Positions 49,381 to 56,965 of a stretch of DNA of 64,000 bases are shown here, one piece after another (within the stretch, counting starts at the first letter, position 1; each line of letters starts with the position of its first letter). Below the pieces are notes generated by a model. The model did no database searches, was not told the DNA's origin, and worked only from the letters and a program-made list of their open reading frames with translations. The position numbers and the translations under genes are program-made. Source of the stretch: Rubrivivax sp. (GTDB taxonomy: Bacteria; Pseudomonadota; Gammaproteobacteria; Burkholderiales; Burkholderiaceae_C); the NCBI GenBank assembly GCA_020248915.1, contig JADCGP010000015.1:124001-188000 (forward strand), in the 5' to 3' direction.

Positions 49381-50853
49381 ATGGCCAGCCAGGACATCCT
49401 CATCAACTGGTCCCCGCAGGAGACGCGGGTGGCTGTGGTCGAGAACGGCGCCGTGCAGGAGCTGCACATCGAGCGCACGCTCGAGCGCGGGCTGGTGGGC
49501 AACGTCTACCTGGGCAAGGTGGCGCGCGTGCTGCCCGGCATGCAGAGCGCCTTCGTCGACATCGGCCTGGAGCGCGCCGCCTTCCTGCACGTGGCCGACC
49601 TGCTGCCCGGCGGCCCCGCGCGGGCCGACGCGCCGCCGGTGCCCATCGAGCGCCAGGTGTTCGAGGGCCAGACGCTCACCGTGCAGGTGATCAAGGACGC
49701 CATCGGCACCAAGGGCGCGCGGCTGTCCACGCAGGTGAGCATCGCCGGTCGGATGCTGGTTTTCCTGCCGCACGACCAGCACGTCGGCGTGTCTCAGAAG
49801 ATCGGCAGCGCCGAGCTGCGCGAGCAGCTGCGCGCGCGCGTGCAGGCGCTGGCCGCGCTGCCCGGCGGCGAGAACCCGGGCGGCTTCATCCTGCGCACCA
49901 ATGCCGAGGAAGCCAGCGACGCCGAGCTGGCCGAGGACATCGCCTACCTTCGCAAGACCTGGGCCGCGATCCGCGAGCGCTCGCTGCAGTCGCCGCCGGG
50001 CACGCTGCTGCACCAGGACCTTGGCCTGGCCGAGCGCGTGCTGCGCGACCTGGCGCACGAGGGCACGCAGTCGATCCGCATCGACTCGAGGATGCAGCAC
50101 GAGCAGCTCAGGGCCTTCGGCGAGGCCTACATGCCGCGCGCCGCGGCCCGGCTCGAGCACTACAAGGGCGAGCGGCCCATCTTCGACCTGTTCGGCATCG
50201 AGGAGGAGATCGCGCGCGCGCTCGCCCGCCGCGTCGACCTGAAGAGCGGCGGCTACCTGATCATCGACCAGACCGAGGCGCTGACGACGATCGACGTCAA
50301 CACCGGCGGCTTCGTCGGCGCGCGCAACTTCGACGACACGATCTTCAAGACCAACCTCGAGGCGGCCGGCGCCATCGCGCGCCAGCTGCGCCTGCGCAAC
50401 CTGGGCGGCATCATCATCGCCGACTTCATCGACATGACGCGCGAGGAGCACCGACAGTCGGTGCTGGCCGAGCTGAGGAAGCAGCTCGCGCGCGACCGCA
50501 CCCGCACCACGGTGAGCGGCTTCACGCAGCTGGGGCTGGTGGAGATGACGCGCAAGCGCACGCGCGAGAGCCTGGCCCACATGCTGTGCCAGCCCTGCCC
50601 CACCTGCGAGGGCCGCGGCCAGGTGAAGACGCCGCGCACCGTGTGCTACGACATCCTGCGCGAGATCCTGCGCGAGGCGCGCCAGTTCAGCCCCAAGGAA
50701 TTCCGCATCGTCGCCAGCGCCGCCGTCGTCGAGACGCTGCTCGACGAGGAGAGCGTGCACCTGGCCGGCCTGTCGGAGTTCATCGGCAAGCCGATCTCGC
50801 TGAGTGCCGAGCCGGGGATGAGCCCGGAGCAATACGACATCGTGCTGATGTAG
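49381..50853 (+). CDS. rng: Ribonuclease G
   Basis: The 490-residue endoribonuclease acts in 16S rRNA 5' processing and mRNA decay. It has an S1 domain at the N-terminus (GNVYLGKVARVLPGMQSAFVDIGLERAAFLHVADL), catalytic Asp residues in TIDVNTGGF and IIADFIDM, and the zinc-link Cys pair in CQPCPTCEGRG. The end, SPEQYDIVLM, overlaps the left attachment repeat of the island that follows. The protein looks full length. Confidence 0.96.
   Translation: MASQDILINWSPQETRVAVVENGAVQELHIERTLERGLVGNVYLGKVARVLPGMQSAFVDIGLERAAFLHVADLLPGGPARADAPPVPIERQVFEGQTLTVQVIKDAIGTKGARLSTQVSIAGRMLVFLPHDQHVGVSQKIGSAELREQLRARVQALAALPGGENPGGFILRTNAEEASDAELAEDIAYLRKTWAAIRERSLQSPPGTLLHQDLGLAERVLRDLAHEGTQSIRIDSRMQHEQLRAFGEAYMPRAAARLEHYKGERPIFDLFGIEEEIARALARRVDLKSGGYLIIDQTEALTTIDVNTGGFVGARNFDDTIFKTNLEAAGAIARQLRLRNLGGIIIADFIDMTREEHRQSVLAELRKQLARDRTRTTVSGFTQLGLVEMTRKRTRESLAHMLCQPCPTCEGRGQVKTPRTVCYDILREILREARQFSPKEFRIVASAAVVETLLDEESVHLAGLSEFIGKPISLSAEPGMSPEQYDIVLM
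50832..50853. repeat. attL-like direct repeat (3' end of rng)
   Basis: This is the left copy of the 22-bp repeat, comprising the last codons and TAG stop of rng. It differs from the right copy by two adjacent bases (AT versus CC). Confidence 0.75.
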
Positions 50854-50857
50854 CGGT

Positions 50858-50967
50858 TCACGGGGTCCCACCCCGGATCAGTTGCCACCCGCAAGCGCCT
50901 GATTTCCCAGGCGTTTTCGGGTGGCAAGTTTCTTCGATGCCCTTGAAGTCTCACCGGGTCCCACTCC
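50858..50967. repeat. Pair of 17-bp direct repeats at the island left end
   Basis: TCACGGGGTCCCACCCC (50858-50874) and TCACCGGGTCCCACTCC (50951-50967) agree at 15 of 17 positions and flank the long palindrome. Spaced repeats of this kind next to an att core resemble integrase arm-type sites; this is inference. Confidence 0.5.
50882..50927. other. Long interrupted palindrome at the left end of the island
   Basis: TTGCCACCCG (50882-50891) pairs with CGGGTGGCAA (50918-50927), and the inner arm CGCCTG (50896-50901) pairs with CAGGCG (50908-50913), with small internal bulges and a six-base loop. It could end rng transcription or be an integrase or excisionase site. A smaller hairpin (CGGGGT-CCC-ACCCCG, 50861-50875) lies just before it. 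Confidence 0.55.
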
Positions 50968-51038
50968 AATCGGGCAGCTGGCTGGGTCGCTAGACGGGTA
51001 GCCGCGATCCTGCCCACATCCGAGCAACGGGGGTGCGG

Positions 51039-51361
51039 ATGGCACGGGGCAAGGGCCACCTGACGGACCTGCAACTCAGGCACTGGATCAAGGCCGGCAA
51101 GCCTCGCCCAAGACCGACGGCGATGGCCTCACGTTCACGCTTTCGGCCGCCGGCGTGTCCGGCTGGATCCTGCGTTACCCGCACCGCGGCCGGCGCCGCG
51201 AGCTGACCATCGGCCGCTACCCCGACATCGGCCTGACCGAGGCGCGCGGCATCGCCACCCTCAAGCGCGCAGAAGTTCAGCAGGGCCGCAACCCGGCAGC
51301 CGAGAAGCAAAAGCCAAAGGCCAGGCTGATTGATCCTCGCGGTACGCGCGCCTCTTGGTAG
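51039..51361 (+). pseudogene. Remnant of a DUF4102 (arm-domain) tyrosine recombinase
   Basis: The frame from the ATG at 51039 reads MARGKGHLTDLQLRHWIKAGKP, the usual start of P4-type integrases. A one-base loss near 51104 shifts the frame, after which KTDGDGLTFTLSAAGVSGWILRYPHRGRRRELTIGRYPDIGLTEARG continues the arm-binding domain. The sequence then ends at a TAG (51359-51361) with no core-binding or catalytic domain. The gene is thus both frameshifted and truncated to about 105 codons of a protein normally near 400 residues. Confidence 0.8.
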
Positions 51362-51365
51362 ATCG

Positions 51366-51998
51366 ATGCAAATCAAGCGACAATTGGCGCCTTTAATGCA
51401 TCAGCCCGTCGCCTCCTTGCTATTCCCCGAGTACCGCCGCCGGGTGCTCGGGCTGCTGCTGCTGCGCCCGGATGAGGCGTTGCATGGCCGGGAGGTTGCG
51501 CGCCGCACGGGCTTGCCGGCCGGCACGATCACGCGTGAACTGACCAAGCTGGCCGGGGCGGGGCTGTTGCGGCGCGAGAAGCGCGGCAATCAGCAGGTCT
51601 ACAGCGCCAACACCAGTGGGCCGATCTTTGCCGAACTCGCGAGCATCCTGCGCAAGACCTCCGGCCTGGGCGACGTGCTGTCGGCAGCGCTGGTGCCGCT
51701 GGCCGGGCGGGTGAAGCTGGCCTTCGTCTTCGGCTCGGTCGCCCGGGGAGAGGAAGCGGCGGGCAGCGACATCGATGTGCTGCTGGTCGGCGAAGCCGGC
51801 TTCCGCGACGTGGTTGAGGCGCTGCATCCGGCGCAGACGACACTCGGCCGCGAGATCAATCCGAAGGTCTTCGCGCCTGACGAGTTTGCGGCGAAGGCTC
51901 GCTCGGAGCCGTTCCTGCGGGACGTGCTGTCTCGCCCCAAGATCTTCCTGATCGGAGATGCCGATGACCTTGAAGAACTTGCTGGGCATCAGCCTTGA
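51366..51998 (+). CDS. HTH-nucleotidyltransferase (MNT) protein, putative antitoxin
   Basis: The 210-residue product has a winged-helix domain (about 25-85, LLLRPDEALHGREVARRTGLPAGTITRELTKLAGAGLLRREKRGNQQVYSAN) and a minimal nucleotidyltransferase domain with KLAFVFGSVARGEEAAGSDIDVLLVG, which has the GS...DxD motif. MNT proteins of MNT-HEPN pairs neutralise the HEPN toxin, in studied cases by adenylylation. It overlaps the following HEPN-like gene. Starts at 51366 or 51396 are possible; neither has a clear ribosome-binding site. The frame is intact. Confidence 0.8.
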   Translation: MQIKRQLAPLMHQPVASLLFPEYRRRVLGLLLLRPDEALHGREVARRTGLPAGTITRELTKLAGAGLLRREKRGNQQVYSANTSGPIFAELASILRKTSGLGDVLSAALVPLAGRVKLAFVFGSVARGEEAAGSDIDVLLVGEAGFRDVVEALHPAQTTLGREINPKVFAPDEFAAKARSEPFLRDVLSRPKIFLIGDADDLEELAGHQP

Positions 51999-52353
51999 CG
52001 CGGTTCCGCCGGACCCTGCGGCCATCGGAAGGCTCCTGGCCGCCGCGCAGCGCAATCTGGCCGATCGCGGCCGGCAAGGCCATCATCCATTTGTCGATGG
52101 TGGCGGTGCAGGCCAACGGCTACCGCAGGCTGACCAGCAAGCCTGGACACCACCAGACGGCGTCCAGACCCTCACCACCAGCGTCGGTGTCGCAACAGCC
52201 CGGGTCATCGTGCTCGACGCGCTGCGCAAGCAGCGCAGCGTGTCCGACTACTCGGGCGATCTCATCCCCGATGCCGTGGCCGCCGAGTGCCTGGCCAGCG
52301 CGCAGGCCTTGCAGGGGCACGTGTTGGCCTGGCTGAAGGAGCACCGACCCTAA
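51964..52353 (+). pseudogene. Frameshifted HEPN-family partner of the MNT gene
   Basis: The frame from the ATG at 51964 is open to 52353 and begins MTLKNLLGISLDAVPPDPAAIGRLLAAAQRNLAD. The stretch from about 52062 to 52162 is meaningless in that frame. Another frame there reads KAIIHLSMVAVQANGYRRLTSKPGHHQT, the conserved HEPN-family segment, and the first frame resumes with VQTLTTSVGVATARVIVLDALRKQRSVSDYSGD. So a deletion plus frameshift near 52065 is balanced by a one-base loss near 52162. The toxin core is scrambled and probably inactive. GGAG six bases before 51964 supports that start over 51958. Confidence 0.72.
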
Positions 52354-52399
52354 CTGCTGTCGGGCTGACGCCAACATCGCCTCCGGATCCCCTCACCGC

Positions 52400-55300
52400 A
52401 TGCGCCTGCTCCAATACAAGGACCTGAACCTCCGCCGCGTCAAGGCCGCATTCGACAAGGTCAAGGCCGCCATCGAGTCCGGCGACTTCCGCTCGGCCGA
52501 CGTGAAGAAGCTCAACGCCGGGCCGTACTACCGTGCCAAGCTGGACTACGCGAACCGGCTGCTGCTGCAGTTCGCGCGCATCGACCGTCCAGAGGTGGAC
52601 GGCGGCACCGAGACCGTGTGCCTGGCCTTGGAGGTGATCGAGAACCACGCCTACGATCGCTCGCGCTTCCTGCGCGGTGCGGTGGTGGACGAGGCCCGCC
52701 TCGAGCGCGAACCGGCAGCCGACACCAGGGCCCCGGCGCTGGCCGCCGAGGCCGCGCCGCTGCGCTGGCTGGGCCCGGGCCGCACGCAGTTCGAGCTGCT
52801 GGACAAGCCCATCGTCTTCGACGAGGCGCAGGAAGAGGCCTACCGCCACCCGGCGCCGCTGGTCGTCATCGGCTCGGCCGGTTCGGGCAAGACCGCGGTC
52901 ACGTTGGCGCGGCTGCGCGACGCCGAGGGCCGGGTGCTGTACGTCACGCTGTCGGCCTACCTGGCGCAGGGCGCCCGTGCACTGCACGCAGCGCTGGGCT
53001 TCGAGAACCCGAAGCAGGAGGTCGACTTCCTCAGCTACCGCGAACTGCTCGAGACGCTGCGTGTGCCGCCCGGTCGCGAGGTGACGCTGCCGATGTTCGC
53101 CGCCTGGTGCGAGCGCCACCGCCAGACGCTGCGGCTGCTGGGCGAGCTGGATGTGCAGGCGCTGTTCGAGGAGTTCCGTGGCGTCATCGGCGCACAACCG
53201 GCGGGCCCGTTGTCGCTGGCCGACTACCTGGCGCTGGGCACGCGGCAGAGCCTGTTGAACAGCGCGCAGCGCGAGCTGGCCCATGGCCTGTTCCAGCGCT
53301 ACCGCACCTGGCTGGCTGAGACCGGGCTTCACGACAGCAACCTGGTGGCGCACGAGTGGCGCACGCAGATGGCCGAGAAGCAGCCGCCGGTCTACGACTT
53401 CGTCGTCATCGACGAGGTGCAGGACCTCACGCCGGTGCAGCTGGCCCTGGTGCTGGCACTGCTGAAGGCGCCGGGACAGTTCATCCTGTGCGGCGACAGC
53501 CACCAGATCGTGCATCCCAATTTCTTCAGCTGGGCCGCGCTGAAGAGTCTGTTCTGGCAGGGCCTGGCCGGCGATGCGGCGCAGCGTCAGCCGCTGAAGC
53601 TGTTGCAGGCCAACTTCCGCAACACGCTGGCCGTCACCGCAATCGCCAACCGGCTGCTGAAGATCAAGCAGGCGCGTTTCGGCTCGGTGGACCGCGAGAG
53701 CAACTTCCTCGTGCGCAGCACCTCGCCCGTGGCCGGCGAGGTGCGGCTGCTCGACTCGAAGGAAAGGACGCTGGCGCAGCTGGACGCAGCGACGCGGCAG
53801 TCGGTCCGCCATGCGGTGATCGTGCTGCGCGACGAGGACAAGCCCGCGGCACGCCAGGCCTTCCACACGCCGCTGGTCTTCAGCGTGCACGAGGCCAAGG
53901 GCCTGGAGTACCCGCACGTGCTGCTGTTCCGGCTGGTGTCGAGCCAGCGTCAGGCCTATGCCGAGGTGTGCGAGGGCGTCAGCGCGTCCGACCTCCAGGC
54001 CGACGACCTCGAGTACCGCCGCGCGCGCGACAAGGCCGACAAGTCGCTGGAGCTGTACAAGTTCCAGATCAATGCGCTGTACGTGGCGATGACGCGCGCG
54101 GTCGAGACGCTTACGCTGGTCGAACAGGACACGGGCCACCCGCTGCTGGAACTCCTCGGCCTGAAGGCGGGCGAGGTAACGGCGCAAGCCGCGGCGAAGT
54201 CGACGCAGGACGAGTGGGCCCAGGAAGCGCGCCGGCTCGAACTGCAGGGCAAGGCCGAGCAGGCGCAGGCCATCCGCGATGCCTTCCTGCAGCACAGGCC
54301 GGTGCCGTGGGTGCCGTGGAGCCAGGCGCTGATCGAAGACCAGTTCGCGAAGGCCTTCGACCCGCAGAACCCGAGCAGCAAGCCGCGGCAGACGGTCTTC
54401 GACTATGCGCTGTGGCATGGCCAGCACGCCTGGATCGAGTCGCTGGCTTCGGCCAGGTTCGCTCCAGCCCGTGGCCTGATGGAGGAGCATGAGTTCGCCG
54501 GCGCCGGCACCCTGCTGCCGCCACGCTACGGCATCGAAGGCTCGTGGATGGCCCGGCAGCAGCTGGTGCGCAAGACGGTCGCTGCGGTGCACCAGCGCCA
54601 CCTGCAGCCGTACCAGGCGAAGAACTTCAAGGACATCCTGCGTGCCGCTGACGTGCACGGCCCCGACCATGCCACGCCGGTGGGTGCCGCGCCGCTGATG
54701 CTCGCCGCCATGGCCGGCAATGCACCTTTGGTGGAAGCGCTGCTGGCCAAGGGCGCCGACCCCGCGCGCCGCGACGAGTTCGGCCACACGGCCTGGGACC
54801 ATGCGGTCAATCGTGCGATGCGCGAAGCCGCTTTTGCAGGCAGTGGTCTTCCGGCGCTCTTCGACCTCCTGGCACCACCAGCGCTGGACGTGCAGACCGA
54901 CGGTCGCCTCGTGCGGCTGGAACGTCACCAGGGGGAGTACTGGCTGCTCACGCTGATGCTGGCCGGGCTGAAGACGCAGTGGTCGCAGTGCGTGACTCGC
55001 CGGCTGGAGCCGTACCGCTACCTGTCGGGCTACTTCGCCGACCAGCTCCACGACGTGCTGCAGCAGTTGCCGCTCTGGTTGTGGCCCGAGGCGCGTGCCA
55101 AGCGCACCTATGTCAACCAGGTGCTTGCCCGCGCCGAGGTGAACAGCAGCTACCAGCCGGCGCGGCGTTTGTGGGTGCGCACGAAGAACGGCCACTATTT
55201 CCCGAACCCGGCAATGCAGCTGCGGGCCGGCGAGGGATGGCAGCCGGTGTACGAGCGGATGGCACTGACCTGGATCGACCGCGGCTGCGGCCGCGAGACC

Positions 55301-55435
55301 GAGCACCGGCCCAGGCCGGCGGAGTCGATCCAGTGGGCGCGCGAGGCGCTGGCGCGGGCCACTGAGCCGGAGCCGCCTGCCGCAGAACCGGAACCGCCGC
55401 CGGCAGAAGCGGACGGGCAGCAGCGGCTGTTCTGA
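52400..55435 (+). CDS. Large UvrD/Rep-like SF1 helicase with possible RelE-like N-terminus and ankyrin repeats
   Basis: The product has 1011 residues. Residues 1-95 (FRSADVKKLNAGPYYRAKLDYANRLLLQF; LALEVIENHAYDRSRFL) resemble RelE/ParE-fold toxins. The helicase has Walker A GSAGSGKT (158-165), motif II VVIDEVQDL (336-343), QANFRNT (403-409), VHEAKGLEYPHVLLF (496-510) and ALYVAMTRA (559-567). Around 765-820 is an ankyrin-like stretch (APLMLAAMAGNAPLVEALLAKGADPARRDEFGHTAWDHAV). The last 190 residues match nothing I recognise. The gene is intact and takes up most of the island. A defence role is plausible from context but unproven. Confidence 0.8.
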   Translation: MRLLQYKDLNLRRVKAAFDKVKAAIESGDFRSADVKKLNAGPYYRAKLDYANRLLLQFARIDRPEVDGGTETVCLALEVIENHAYDRSRFLRGAVVDEARLEREPAADTRAPALAAEAAPLRWLGPGRTQFELLDKPIVFDEAQEEAYRHPAPLVVIGSAGSGKTAVTLARLRDAEGRVLYVTLSAYLAQGARALHAALGFENPKQEVDFLSYRELLETLRVPPGREVTLPMFAAWCERHRQTLRLLGELDVQALFEEFRGVIGAQPAGPLSLADYLALGTRQSLLNSAQRELAHGLFQRYRTWLAETGLHDSNLVAHEWRTQMAEKQPPVYDFVVIDEVQDLTPVQLALVLALLKAPGQFILCGDSHQIVHPNFFSWAALKSLFWQGLAGDAAQRQPLKLLQANFRNTLAVTAIANRLLKIKQARFGSVDRESNFLVRSTSPVAGEVRLLDSKERTLAQLDAATRQSVRHAVIVLRDEDKPAARQAFHTPLVFSVHEAKGLEYPHVLLFRLVSSQRQAYAEVCEGVSASDLQADDLEYRRARDKADKSLELYKFQINALYVAMTRAVETLTLVEQDTGHPLLELLGLKAGEVTAQAAAKSTQDEWAQEARRLELQGKAEQAQAIRDAFLQHRPVPWVPWSQALIEDQFAKAFDPQNPSSKPRQTVFDYALWHGQHAWIESLASARFAPARGLMEEHEFAGAGTLLPPRYGIEGSWMARQQLVRKTVAAVHQRHLQPYQAKNFKDILRAADVHGPDHATPVGAAPLMLAAMAGNAPLVEALLAKGADPARRDEFGHTAWDHAVNRAMREAAFAGSGLPALFDLLAPPALDVQTDGRLVRLERHQGEYWLLTLMLAGLKTQWSQCVTRRLEPYRYLSGYFADQLHDVLQQLPLWLWPEARAKRTYVNQVLARAEVNSSYQPARRLWVRTKNGHYFPNPAMQLRAGEGWQPVYERMALTWIDRGCGRETEHRPRPAESIQWAREALARATEPEPPAAEPEPPPAEADGQQRLF

Positions 55436-55455
55436 CGCTCGGCTACCCTGGCACC

Positions 55456-55683
55456 ATGAAGATCCGCCCGATTCACACTGAAGTCGACTACCGGGCCGCG
55501 CTCGCCGGCATCTCGGCCTTGATGGAGTCCGACCCTGCTCCGGGTGCGACCGAGGGTGACCGGCTGGACATCCTGGCCACGCAGGCTCAGGCCCATGAGT
55601 CCCGGCACTTTCCGATCGATGCGCCCGAACCCCGTGTCTGGGATGCCGAGCTGCAAGTGCCAAGGTCACTGCAGCCCGCGTGA
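55456..55683 (+). CDS. Truncated COG5499-type (HigA-like) antitoxin
   Basis: The 75-residue product begins MKIRPIHTEVDYRAALAGISALMESDPAPGATEGDRLDILATQAQAHESRHFPIDAPEP, the dimerisation half of COG5499 antitoxins. After residue 60 the sequence departs from the family and ends without the helix-turn-helix that normally fills residues 65-120. No toxin gene accompanies it. It is probably a remnant left by recombination near the right end of the island. Confidence 0.68.
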   Translation: MKIRPIHTEVDYRAALAGISALMESDPAPGATEGDRLDILATQAQAHESRHFPIDAPEPRVWDAELQVPRSLQPA

Positions 55684-55797
55684 GTCCATGAAAGCCCCTG
55701 CGGTCCAGGTAGCCAGACGGGTAGCCCGAAACGCCACCCGCCTCAGACGCGAACGCAAGCCGTCGTTCCGCCTGCGACTTTCGCCGCGTTCCCCTCG

Positions 55798-55819
55798 ATA
55801 CGACATCGTGCTGCCGTAG
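55798..55819. repeat. attR-like direct repeat (copy of rng 3' end)
   Basis: This is the right copy of the 22-bp island boundary repeat. It encodes RYDIVLP and a TAG when read in the frame of the duplicated rng end. Confidence 0.75.
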
Positions 55820-55880: not shown

Positions 55881-56603
55881 ATGCTGCGCACGATGCAACC
55901 AGCCCTGCGCCGCCATCCCGTGCGCTGGCGCGCCTTCCGGCTCGGCGCGCGCTGCGTCGTGCCGAGCCTGCCGGCCATGGCGGCGTGGGGGCTGGTGACG
56001 GGCGTGGCCATGGTCAAGGTCGGGCTCGAGCTGCTGCCGGCGCTGGGCATGACCTTCATCGTCTACTCGGGCACCTCGCAGCTGACGGTGCTGCCGCTGC
56101 TGGCGGCCGGCACCGGGGTGCTGGCGATGGCGGCCGCGGCGGCCGTGGCCAACCTGCGCTTCGTCGTCTACAGCGCGCTGCTGTCGCGCCACCTGCGGCG
56201 CGTGCCGCTCGCGCTGCGGCTGGGCACCGGCTTCTGGACCATCGACGGCCCGGTGGCGGCCTTCATGCAGCAGCAGCGCCGGGGGCCGCTGGTGCAGCGC
56301 GTCGCGTTCCTGAACGGCGCAAACGCGCTCACCGCGGCCGTGTGGTGCGGCAGCTCGGTGGCGGGCATCGCGCTGGCTGCGGTGCTGCCGCTCGGGGCTG
56401 AGCTGGCCTACATCGGGCTGCTGGCGCTGTTCGGCATCACGGTGCCGCTGCTGGCCGGACGGCCGGCCTGGGCCGCTGCCGCGGCCAGCGTGGCCGTGGC
56501 GCTGGCCGGGGCCGACTGGCCGCACCGCCTGGGCACCTTCGCGGCGGTGCTGGCCGGCGTGGCGGCGGCGCTGTGGGCCGGCCGCGGCCGGGGGCCGCGA
56601 TGA
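55881..56603 (+). CDS. azlC: AzlC family branched-chain amino acid exporter, large subunit
   Basis: This is a 240-residue membrane protein with the AzlC pattern: FRLGARCVVPSLPAMAAWGLVTGVAMVKVGL, GMTFIVYSGTSQLTVLPLLAAG and ANLRFVVYSALLSRHLRRVPLALRLG. AzlC works with AzlD to export branched-chain or related amino acids. The stop overlaps the azlD start by 4 bp. It directly follows the right end of the island. Confidence 0.9.
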   Translation: MLRTMQPALRRHPVRWRAFRLGARCVVPSLPAMAAWGLVTGVAMVKVGLELLPALGMTFIVYSGTSQLTVLPLLAAGTGVLAMAAAAAVANLRFVVYSALLSRHLRRVPLALRLGTGFWTIDGPVAAFMQQQRRGPLVQRVAFLNGANALTAAVWCGSSVAGIALAAVLPLGAELAYIGLLALFGITVPLLAGRPAWAAAAASVAVALAGADWPHRLGTFAAVLAGVAAALWAGRGRGPR

Positions 56604-56965
56604 GCGTGTCGGCAGCGGCGCTGTGGGTGCTGATCGGGCTGCTGGCGGCGGTCACGCTGGTGGCGCGCAACCTGTTCCTGGTGCTGCCGCCGCGCTGGCA
56701 GCCGCGCGGCGCGGTGGAGCAGGCGCTGCGCGTGGCGCCGCTGGCGGCGCTGCTGGCCATCACGGTGCCGGAGATCGTGCGCGACCTGCCGCTGCGCCTG
56801 GCCGCGGCGCCCGGCTGGGGCGCGGGCGCGCTGGCGGTGGCCACCGACCCGCGGCTCGCGGGTGCGCTGGCGCTGCTGCTGGTGGTGCGGCTGACGCGCA
56901 AGTCGCTCTGGGGCCTGGTCGCCGGGGCCTCGGTCTACCTGGGGCTGCTGGCGCTGGCGGGCTGA
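56600..56965 (+). CDS. azlD: AzlD family branched-chain amino acid exporter, small subunit
   Basis: This is a 121-residue hydrophobic protein with four predicted helices. The segment RNLFLVLPPRWQPRGAVEQALRVAPLAALLAITVPEIV is typical of AzlD. It is coupled to azlC by ATGA overlap. The 182-bp gap after it (56966-57147) has no recognisable feature. Confidence 0.87.
   Translation: MSVSAAALWVLIGLLAAVTLVARNLFLVLPPRWQPRGAVEQALRVAPLAALLAITVPEIVRDLPLRLAAAPGWGAGALAVATDPRLAGALALLLVVRLTRKSLWGLVAGASVYLGLLALAG

Follow-up and report, generated by a model that had tools for sequence, protein, structure and literature searches.

Genomic islands are known at trmE/mnmE and at yicC, and the closest described counterparts of the locus treated here are the dusA-associated integrases and islands. 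In the accessible text of Farrugia et al. 2015 (PMC4482086) these are proteobacterial, with a family of tyrosine recombinases tied to a single conserved protein-coding gene and with diverse cargo, prophages included. A further point of reference is the IntSXT subgroup, whose island, integrative and conjugative element, and phage integrases carry an N-terminal DUF4102 (PF13356) arm-binding domain (main text of Smyshlyaev et al. 2021, PMC8138268). We analyzed a window of 64,000 nucleotides from Rubrivivax sp. (GCA_020248915.1, contig JADCGP010000015.1, positions 124,001 to 188,000), in which the interval between the 3' end of rng, the gene for RNase G, and a second copy of that end is a decayed genomic island. 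The islands found at rng resemble those at dusA in the features just named, but they take a different target and occupy its 3' end, whereas dusA islands occupy the gene's 5' end; the likeness to IntSXT is one of shared domain. The words 'rng' and 'ribonuclease' do not occur in the main text of Smyshlyaev et al., insertion at rng is absent from the accessible parts of PMC3091744, PMC8138268, PMC12884075, PMC10224339 and PMC12189769, and the literature searched, with most subscription papers and supplements out of reach, held no report of rng/cafA as an insertion target. The TIGER/Islander island databases may hold the rng target unnamed. The kind of element is known, and it is the rng target and its integrase clade that seem to be new.

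The target gene is identified by its match to the NCBIfam ribonuclease G model (NF008689, 3.2e-194) and by PF10150, and its frame of 490 amino acids is intact through the attachment repeat. An earlier note on this DNA had claimed that the final 22 bases of rng have a second copy at 55798-55819, matching at 20 of 22 positions and including an identical 16-base core, and searches of the window and the genome confirm this. A search of the window for the 22-mer, with the two differing positions left free and up to 3 mismatches allowed, recovered these two places only, and none in 100 shuffles; in the organism's own genome (4.35 Mb, 54 contigs, 99% complete) the core has two exact copies, plus one copy with one mismatch on another contig. 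A chance repeat was rejected on these core counts, on the window search with its shuffles and on the composite-motif scan given below. The interval thus has direct repeats at both ends, one of them the 3' end of a host gene, and an integrase at one end, a remnant in the window and full length in relatives. A search for tRNA genes in the window found none, and the G+C fraction of the island is 0.67-0.70 as against 0.71-0.81 in the island-free windows between 40 and 64 kb. Taken with the evidence from relatives that follows, 50854-55797 is very probably the decayed remnant of at least one site-specific integrative element, inserted at the last rng codons by an arm-domain tyrosine recombinase. 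The proposal that the rng 3' end serves as an island attachment site is supported by the repeats, by the placement of integrases in relatives and by other islands.

Both ends of the interval carry further recognizable parts. Of 38 left ends, that of the window among them, 34 have a GTAGC-type pair with a 12-bp period, compared with 56 of 1000 control stretches of the window. At the right end, where six second cores were viewed first, GTAGC-N7-GTAGC lies 76-90 bases ahead of the core in the window and in the loci L053, L149 and L153, while L086 has one exact and one variant unit. Since repeats of this type and period stand at both ends, as in intact relatives, both ends look like real att halves. 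A composite motif of arms plus core, written after five of its nine sites had been viewed, matched nine places in 2.08 Mb of partly overlapping loci, all at right-end cores, and none in 3 shuffles; the remaining four sites are those of G530, G531 and G532, where the repeat search had already placed attR, and L130, which is new. Right ends in seven genus genomes read TCAATACGAC, with element-type letters ahead of the core, where the host rng at the matching place mostly reads CAGTACGAC (CAATACGAC in the rng of the window, shared with L067 and L089). This difference suggests a crossover inside the shared stretch from TACGAC onward. These data also bear on the possibility that the repeat arose when illegitimate recombination duplicated part of the rng end, with no site-specific integration. 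An unbroken exact match of only 16 bases and a right copy outside any recognized gene would suit such an origin, but the constant spacing of the arm repeats in several genera, the element-type letters ahead of the right-end cores in seven genus genomes and an integrase clade fixed to rng make it highly improbable.

The integrases themselves tie the element to rng. Using the rng-adjacent integrase of L075 we searched 399 genomes of the family and recovered seven loci with at least 63% identity, six of them with rng just upstream. A profile of seven sequences scanned against 84,980 species then yielded 59 loci, the family, genus and profile searches drawing partly on the same genomes (L124 is G024, L129 is G066, L166 is G037 and L164 is G061). 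Wherever class or genus is named these loci are betaproteobacterial (L127 and L137 are titled Proteobacteria only), apart from one Paraferrimonas outlier with 29% identity. Of the 59, 37 have rng immediately upstream in the same orientation, with 155-231 bases between it and the match, so that the expectation of DUF4102 integrases beside rng holds at both levels; 27 of these 37 have an open frame of at least 330 amino acids and ten are broken or cut. Six more (L133, L147, L150, L163, L175 and L178) have an inverted layout, in which 18-38 kb of one contig separate rng from the integrase, which sits turned round at the far end with a reversed rng-end core beside it; five of them have a clear far repeat (scores 17-21), and the integrases of L147 and L175 are identical. 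L155 has the reversed core on a contig that ends, and was counted as rng-linked by the core only. Eight loci with 29-36% identity fall outside the rng group.

In a tree of 67 integrases, from which 18 short or broken proteins and 4 duplicates had been left out beforehand, the rng group forms a clade of 38 rows (support 100/98), and 35 of these are rng-linked, the others being L126, L148 and L151. Intact relatives combine PF13356 with PF00589 (4e-18 and 8.3e-19 in L075; 2.3e-19 and 9.9e-14 in L270), the sense in which the label 'P4-type' holds. R240, K265, H339, R342, H365 and Y374, which form the R-K-H-R-H-Y set of catalytic residues of tyrosine recombinases, are invariant in the seven relatives of the profile alignment (A1) and missing from the window remnant. 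That remnant, first noticed from the sequence alone, is real: it matches PF13356 (Arm-DNA-bind_3, E 1.6e-12) over the arm domain only and shares 89% identity with the frameshifted L037 integrase over 73 residues. Viral contigs gave one match (24% identity) and plasmids six records (29-44%).

Related integrases sit past other genes. A sister clade (sister SPECIFICITIES) of nine rows, with support 100/99 and about 45-48% identity, includes L102, L103, L104 and L109 just past folA, encoding dihydrofolate reductase (DHFR; Pfam on L102 only), while its remaining five rows have other or no clear neighbors. The integrase of Burkholderia phage BcepC6B (NC_005887), the only phage record found at 1e-40, is 43% identical over its full length, which by protein similarity alone is the range of the sister clade. 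Six loci (L168-L170, L172, L173 and L180) lie 194-200 bases past one argA-like gene (AA_kinase plus GNAT; Pfam on L168 only); this group, of 35-36% identity and mostly Rhodocyclales, has another group-specific gene-end target. L112, L113 and L119 lie past yicC (Pfam on L112 only), L112 at 175 bases, and L114 lies 195 bases past mnmE. Hence the two genes at which islands were already known both harbor relatives of the present integrases (L114 and L112), with a target gene other than rng and 32-35% identity to the rng-clade query. This integrase stock seems to specialize, group by group, on gene 3' ends.

To place the window among its closer relatives we examined the genus. The rng query matched all 81 genus genomes, in several merely an RNase E-like paralogue or a fragment, and the DNA past rng was compared for 60 of them (up to 12 kb each, four under 1.5 kb). 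Most of these 60 loci lack the window island genes at rng; the outcome that would have spoken against an insertion, all relatives carrying the same genes with no empty site, was thus not seen. A frequent block, F5-F12-F2-F3-F6-F7-F8, stands directly past rng in L039 and is displaced elsewhere. With the left end of the window element as query, 11 of the 81 genomes gave 12 matches, ten of which (its own included) start at the rng stop or within 6 bases of it, the others being weak (G066:C39 and G052:C50). The right end matched 17 of 81 genomes at E<=0.01 and ten below 1e-4; six of these ten have rng on the same contig, with all seven matches downstream on the rng strand, and four have it on another contig. 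Eight more matches above 1e-4, short and in several cases the rng ends themselves, were left unused. One genome, G009, retains a full-length integrase (84% identity to that of L072, residues 1-383 of 392); its two repeats lie 19 kb from each other, and each end has arms.

Gene content past rng is highly variable in the genus even where no element end is seen, as might be expected if the rng end were a general recombination hotspot and this integrase one passenger among many. Set against this, the other 23 fetched family integrase loci have rng in none of their 1.5-kb flanks (in which an inverted layout would be missed), and several distant groups sit past other genes (six loci at the argA-like gene, four at folA, three at yicC, one at mnmE). 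We therefore regard a general hotspot as unlikely.

An unoccupied site for a related island is found in Cupriavidus. The sequence following attR of the 10.5-kb island of Cupriavidus sp. IDO matches 60 of 60 genus genomes, itself included, some at a paralogue only. Of 25 loci given, one is IDO itself, and in 17 of the 24 relatives rng precedes the matched sequence by 44-710 bases: five, at 44-92 bases, fit a clean junction, three are at 166-219, and nine are at 623-710 with extra sequence. For Bordetella trematum (L153) the DNA past attR matched one of 15 genomes, namely its own, and no relative.

Several observations weigh against the proposed insertion or its ties to rng, in addition to the order in which the composite motif was framed. 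At 2 of its 22 bases the attR copy departs from the rng end, no arm motif accompanies the second core of L037, the composite motif fits neither G032 nor the right ends of the inverted layout, and several right junctions in Rubrivivax are blurred. The far repeat of the Duganella locus L163, though at the expected place, is weak (score 10, tying with two chance matches). Among the integrases, L148, L151 and L182 have no established rng link (the rng contig of L151 ends 160 bases past rng), L157 and L159 start at contig edges, and L126 and L158 carry the rng-end core but sit far from rng. The last two, together with the similar, frameshifted L099 in G331, near which lies what we take to be an IS66-like gene, are probably ectopic copies. 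As for empty sites, seven of the 24 Cupriavidus loci have no rng within the flank, and in Caballeronia two of 12 strongly matching relatives have rng some 1.3 kb ahead of the flank, with other sequence filling the distance, so that they offer no clean junction. The window island itself lacks a pre-insertion site in the genus, azlC following rng in none of the 60 stretches.

The earlier note had expected close relatives to show rng followed directly by azlC, and this was not confirmed. An azlC relative (E<1e-30) occurs in eight of the 81 genus genomes, and in the seven other than the window's own none is on the rng-end contig, with broken contigs limiting G028, G049 and G069. Since azlC is absent past rng in the compared genomes, the right neighbor of the island is probably not ancestral, and azlC as the original neighbor of rng is not supported. 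The azlC block right of attR (55881-56965) may itself be acquired.

On the integration reading, a tyrosine recombinase with an arm-binding (PF13356) and a catalytic (PF00589) domain would have recombined the attP of the element with the final, conserved codons of rng. Since attP would carry those codons too, the rng frame would be rebuilt at the left end (attL) and RNase G left unchanged, with a second copy remaining at the right end (attR). The integrase would catalyze this event, presumably binding the GTAGC repeats and cutting inside the shared stretch that begins with TACGAC, and the hairpin borne by the element may end rng transcription. The window copy can hardly excise by itself, its integrase being reduced to part of the arm domain.

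Table 1. Features of the island and its target in the window, called from open reading frames (ORFs) and family matches.
Feature	Position	Strand	Basis or detail
rng (RNase G), target gene	49381..50853	+	NCBIfam NF008689, Pfam PF10150
attL, final 22 bases of rng (end of YDIVLM codons plus stop)	50832..50853	+	ATACGACATCGTGCTGATGTAG
Palindrome CGGGGT-nnn-ACCCCG just past rng stop, part of element left end	50861..50875	+	6/6 pairs
Strong hairpin then T-rich stretch, terminator-like, element-supplied	50882..50927	+	inverted repeat I2
Left arm-type repeats, three units, 12-bp period	50973..51002	+	GGCAGC, GGTCGC, GGTAGC
Integrase remnant: arm-binding domain, frame change, remainder lost	51039..51322	+	PF13356 Arm-DNA-bind_3
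Winged-helix plus nucleotidyltransferase (MNT-type)	51396..51998 (ORF 51330-51998)	+	PDC-M05A
HEPN-type partner, broken by frame-shifting deletions	51958..52353	+	PDC-M05B
UvrD/Rep-like helicase with ankyrin repeats	52400..55435	+	1011 amino acids
N-terminal PD-Lambda-2_B fragment	55456..55683	+	
Right arm-type repeats, 72 bases ahead of attR core	55709..55725	+	GTAGC-N7-GTAGC
attR, second rng-end copy	55798..55819	+	ATACGACATCGTGCTGCCGTAG

The features of the island are collected in Table 1. Of the two potential structures next to rng, the palindrome keeps all six pairs in 11 of 18 compared rows and three to five in the other seven, its fourth pair being GC in six rows, CG in four, GT in three, AT in one and unpaired in four. 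The first 100 bases past the rng stop have a folding energy of -50.5 kcal/mol; since RNAalifold found no consensus structure on the longer left-end alignment, a terminator is claimed for the window type only.

The toxin-antitoxin or defence genes read earlier from the interval are recognizable in PADLOC terms. The nucleotidyltransferase is an intact PDC-M05A (1.4e-75), whose homologues adjoin rng in other genus genomes, and its HEPN partner is PDC-M05B (8.8e-32), so that the candidate PDC-M05 pair is present with A intact and B broken. The PD-Lambda-2_B match covers positions 1-60 of 402, and the helicase is only weakly GajB-like (best 7.4e-11), with a weak resemblance also to RecB-like helicases. 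Only the helicase gene and one member of a defence pair are still whole inside the island. Elsewhere the MNT/HEPN pair is whole beside rng in L046, L057 and L086, and the helicase-ankyrin gene recurs downstream of rng in L037, L053, L062 and L086 and past an attR in G024 (G024:C198).

Elements can also stack at a single rng. In L086 (3430-5462, in rng orientation) an element left end of 95 bases, 87% identical to that of L072, stands immediately past the first attR, and a second right end follows later; L175, with an extra rng-end copy 2 kb in, again shows stacking. L086 moreover spreads homologues of the window nucleotidyltransferase, HEPN, PD-Lambda-2-like and helicase genes over its two stacked elements, in another order and with other genes between. 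These observations raise the possibility that successive elements at the rng end left the window interval as a patchwork, shaped by stacked insertions and later deletions, with attL and attR perhaps derived from different elements. Although the window genome has just two exact cores and the window no third match at up to 3 mismatches, we give this history a nearly even chance, because of the stacking in L086 and because helicase homologues lie past the second core in L037, L053 and L086 and past attR in G024, while the window gene lies between both copies.

Different cargo between the same repeats, which the note had looked for in relatives, was found in 17 bounded islands of 3.3-42 kb with 218 predicted genes and differing gene numbers. 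The cargo of the G009 island (10 of 15 predicted genes scanned) comprises MzaB, MzaC, MzaE, a cytosine methylase with Vsr, and an AbiL-like pair with an NYN gene. Among the PADLOC matches listed for 85 proteins of seven other islands (25 of 141 families, not split by protein) are Lamassu, type III restriction, Pbe, DarG and a viperin. In Pigmentiphaga litoralis (L270-L272) rng-end repeats bound a 42-kb element (45 of 47 predicted proteins scanned), a tailed-phage prophage as judged from its terminase, portal, head and tail families.

On balance, we lean towards the view that a single integrase clade owns the rng 3' end as a docking site across the Betaproteobacteria, used alike by defence islands and by at least one prophage of a tailed phage, with two mirror-image layouts (the integrase at attL, or inverted at attR) and with stacking. 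Sister groups at the 3' ends of folA, the argA-like gene, yicC and mnmE would then mean that target choice radiated without a change in the arm-site code (GTAGC, 12-bp period). At this locus a chromosomal docking site is mapped with precision; it has an integrase clade of its own and an att anatomy that can be read, and it lends itself to automated searches for defence islands. Together with the sister groups, it makes the switching of target genes by integrases testable through comparison of related natural proteins that have different targets.

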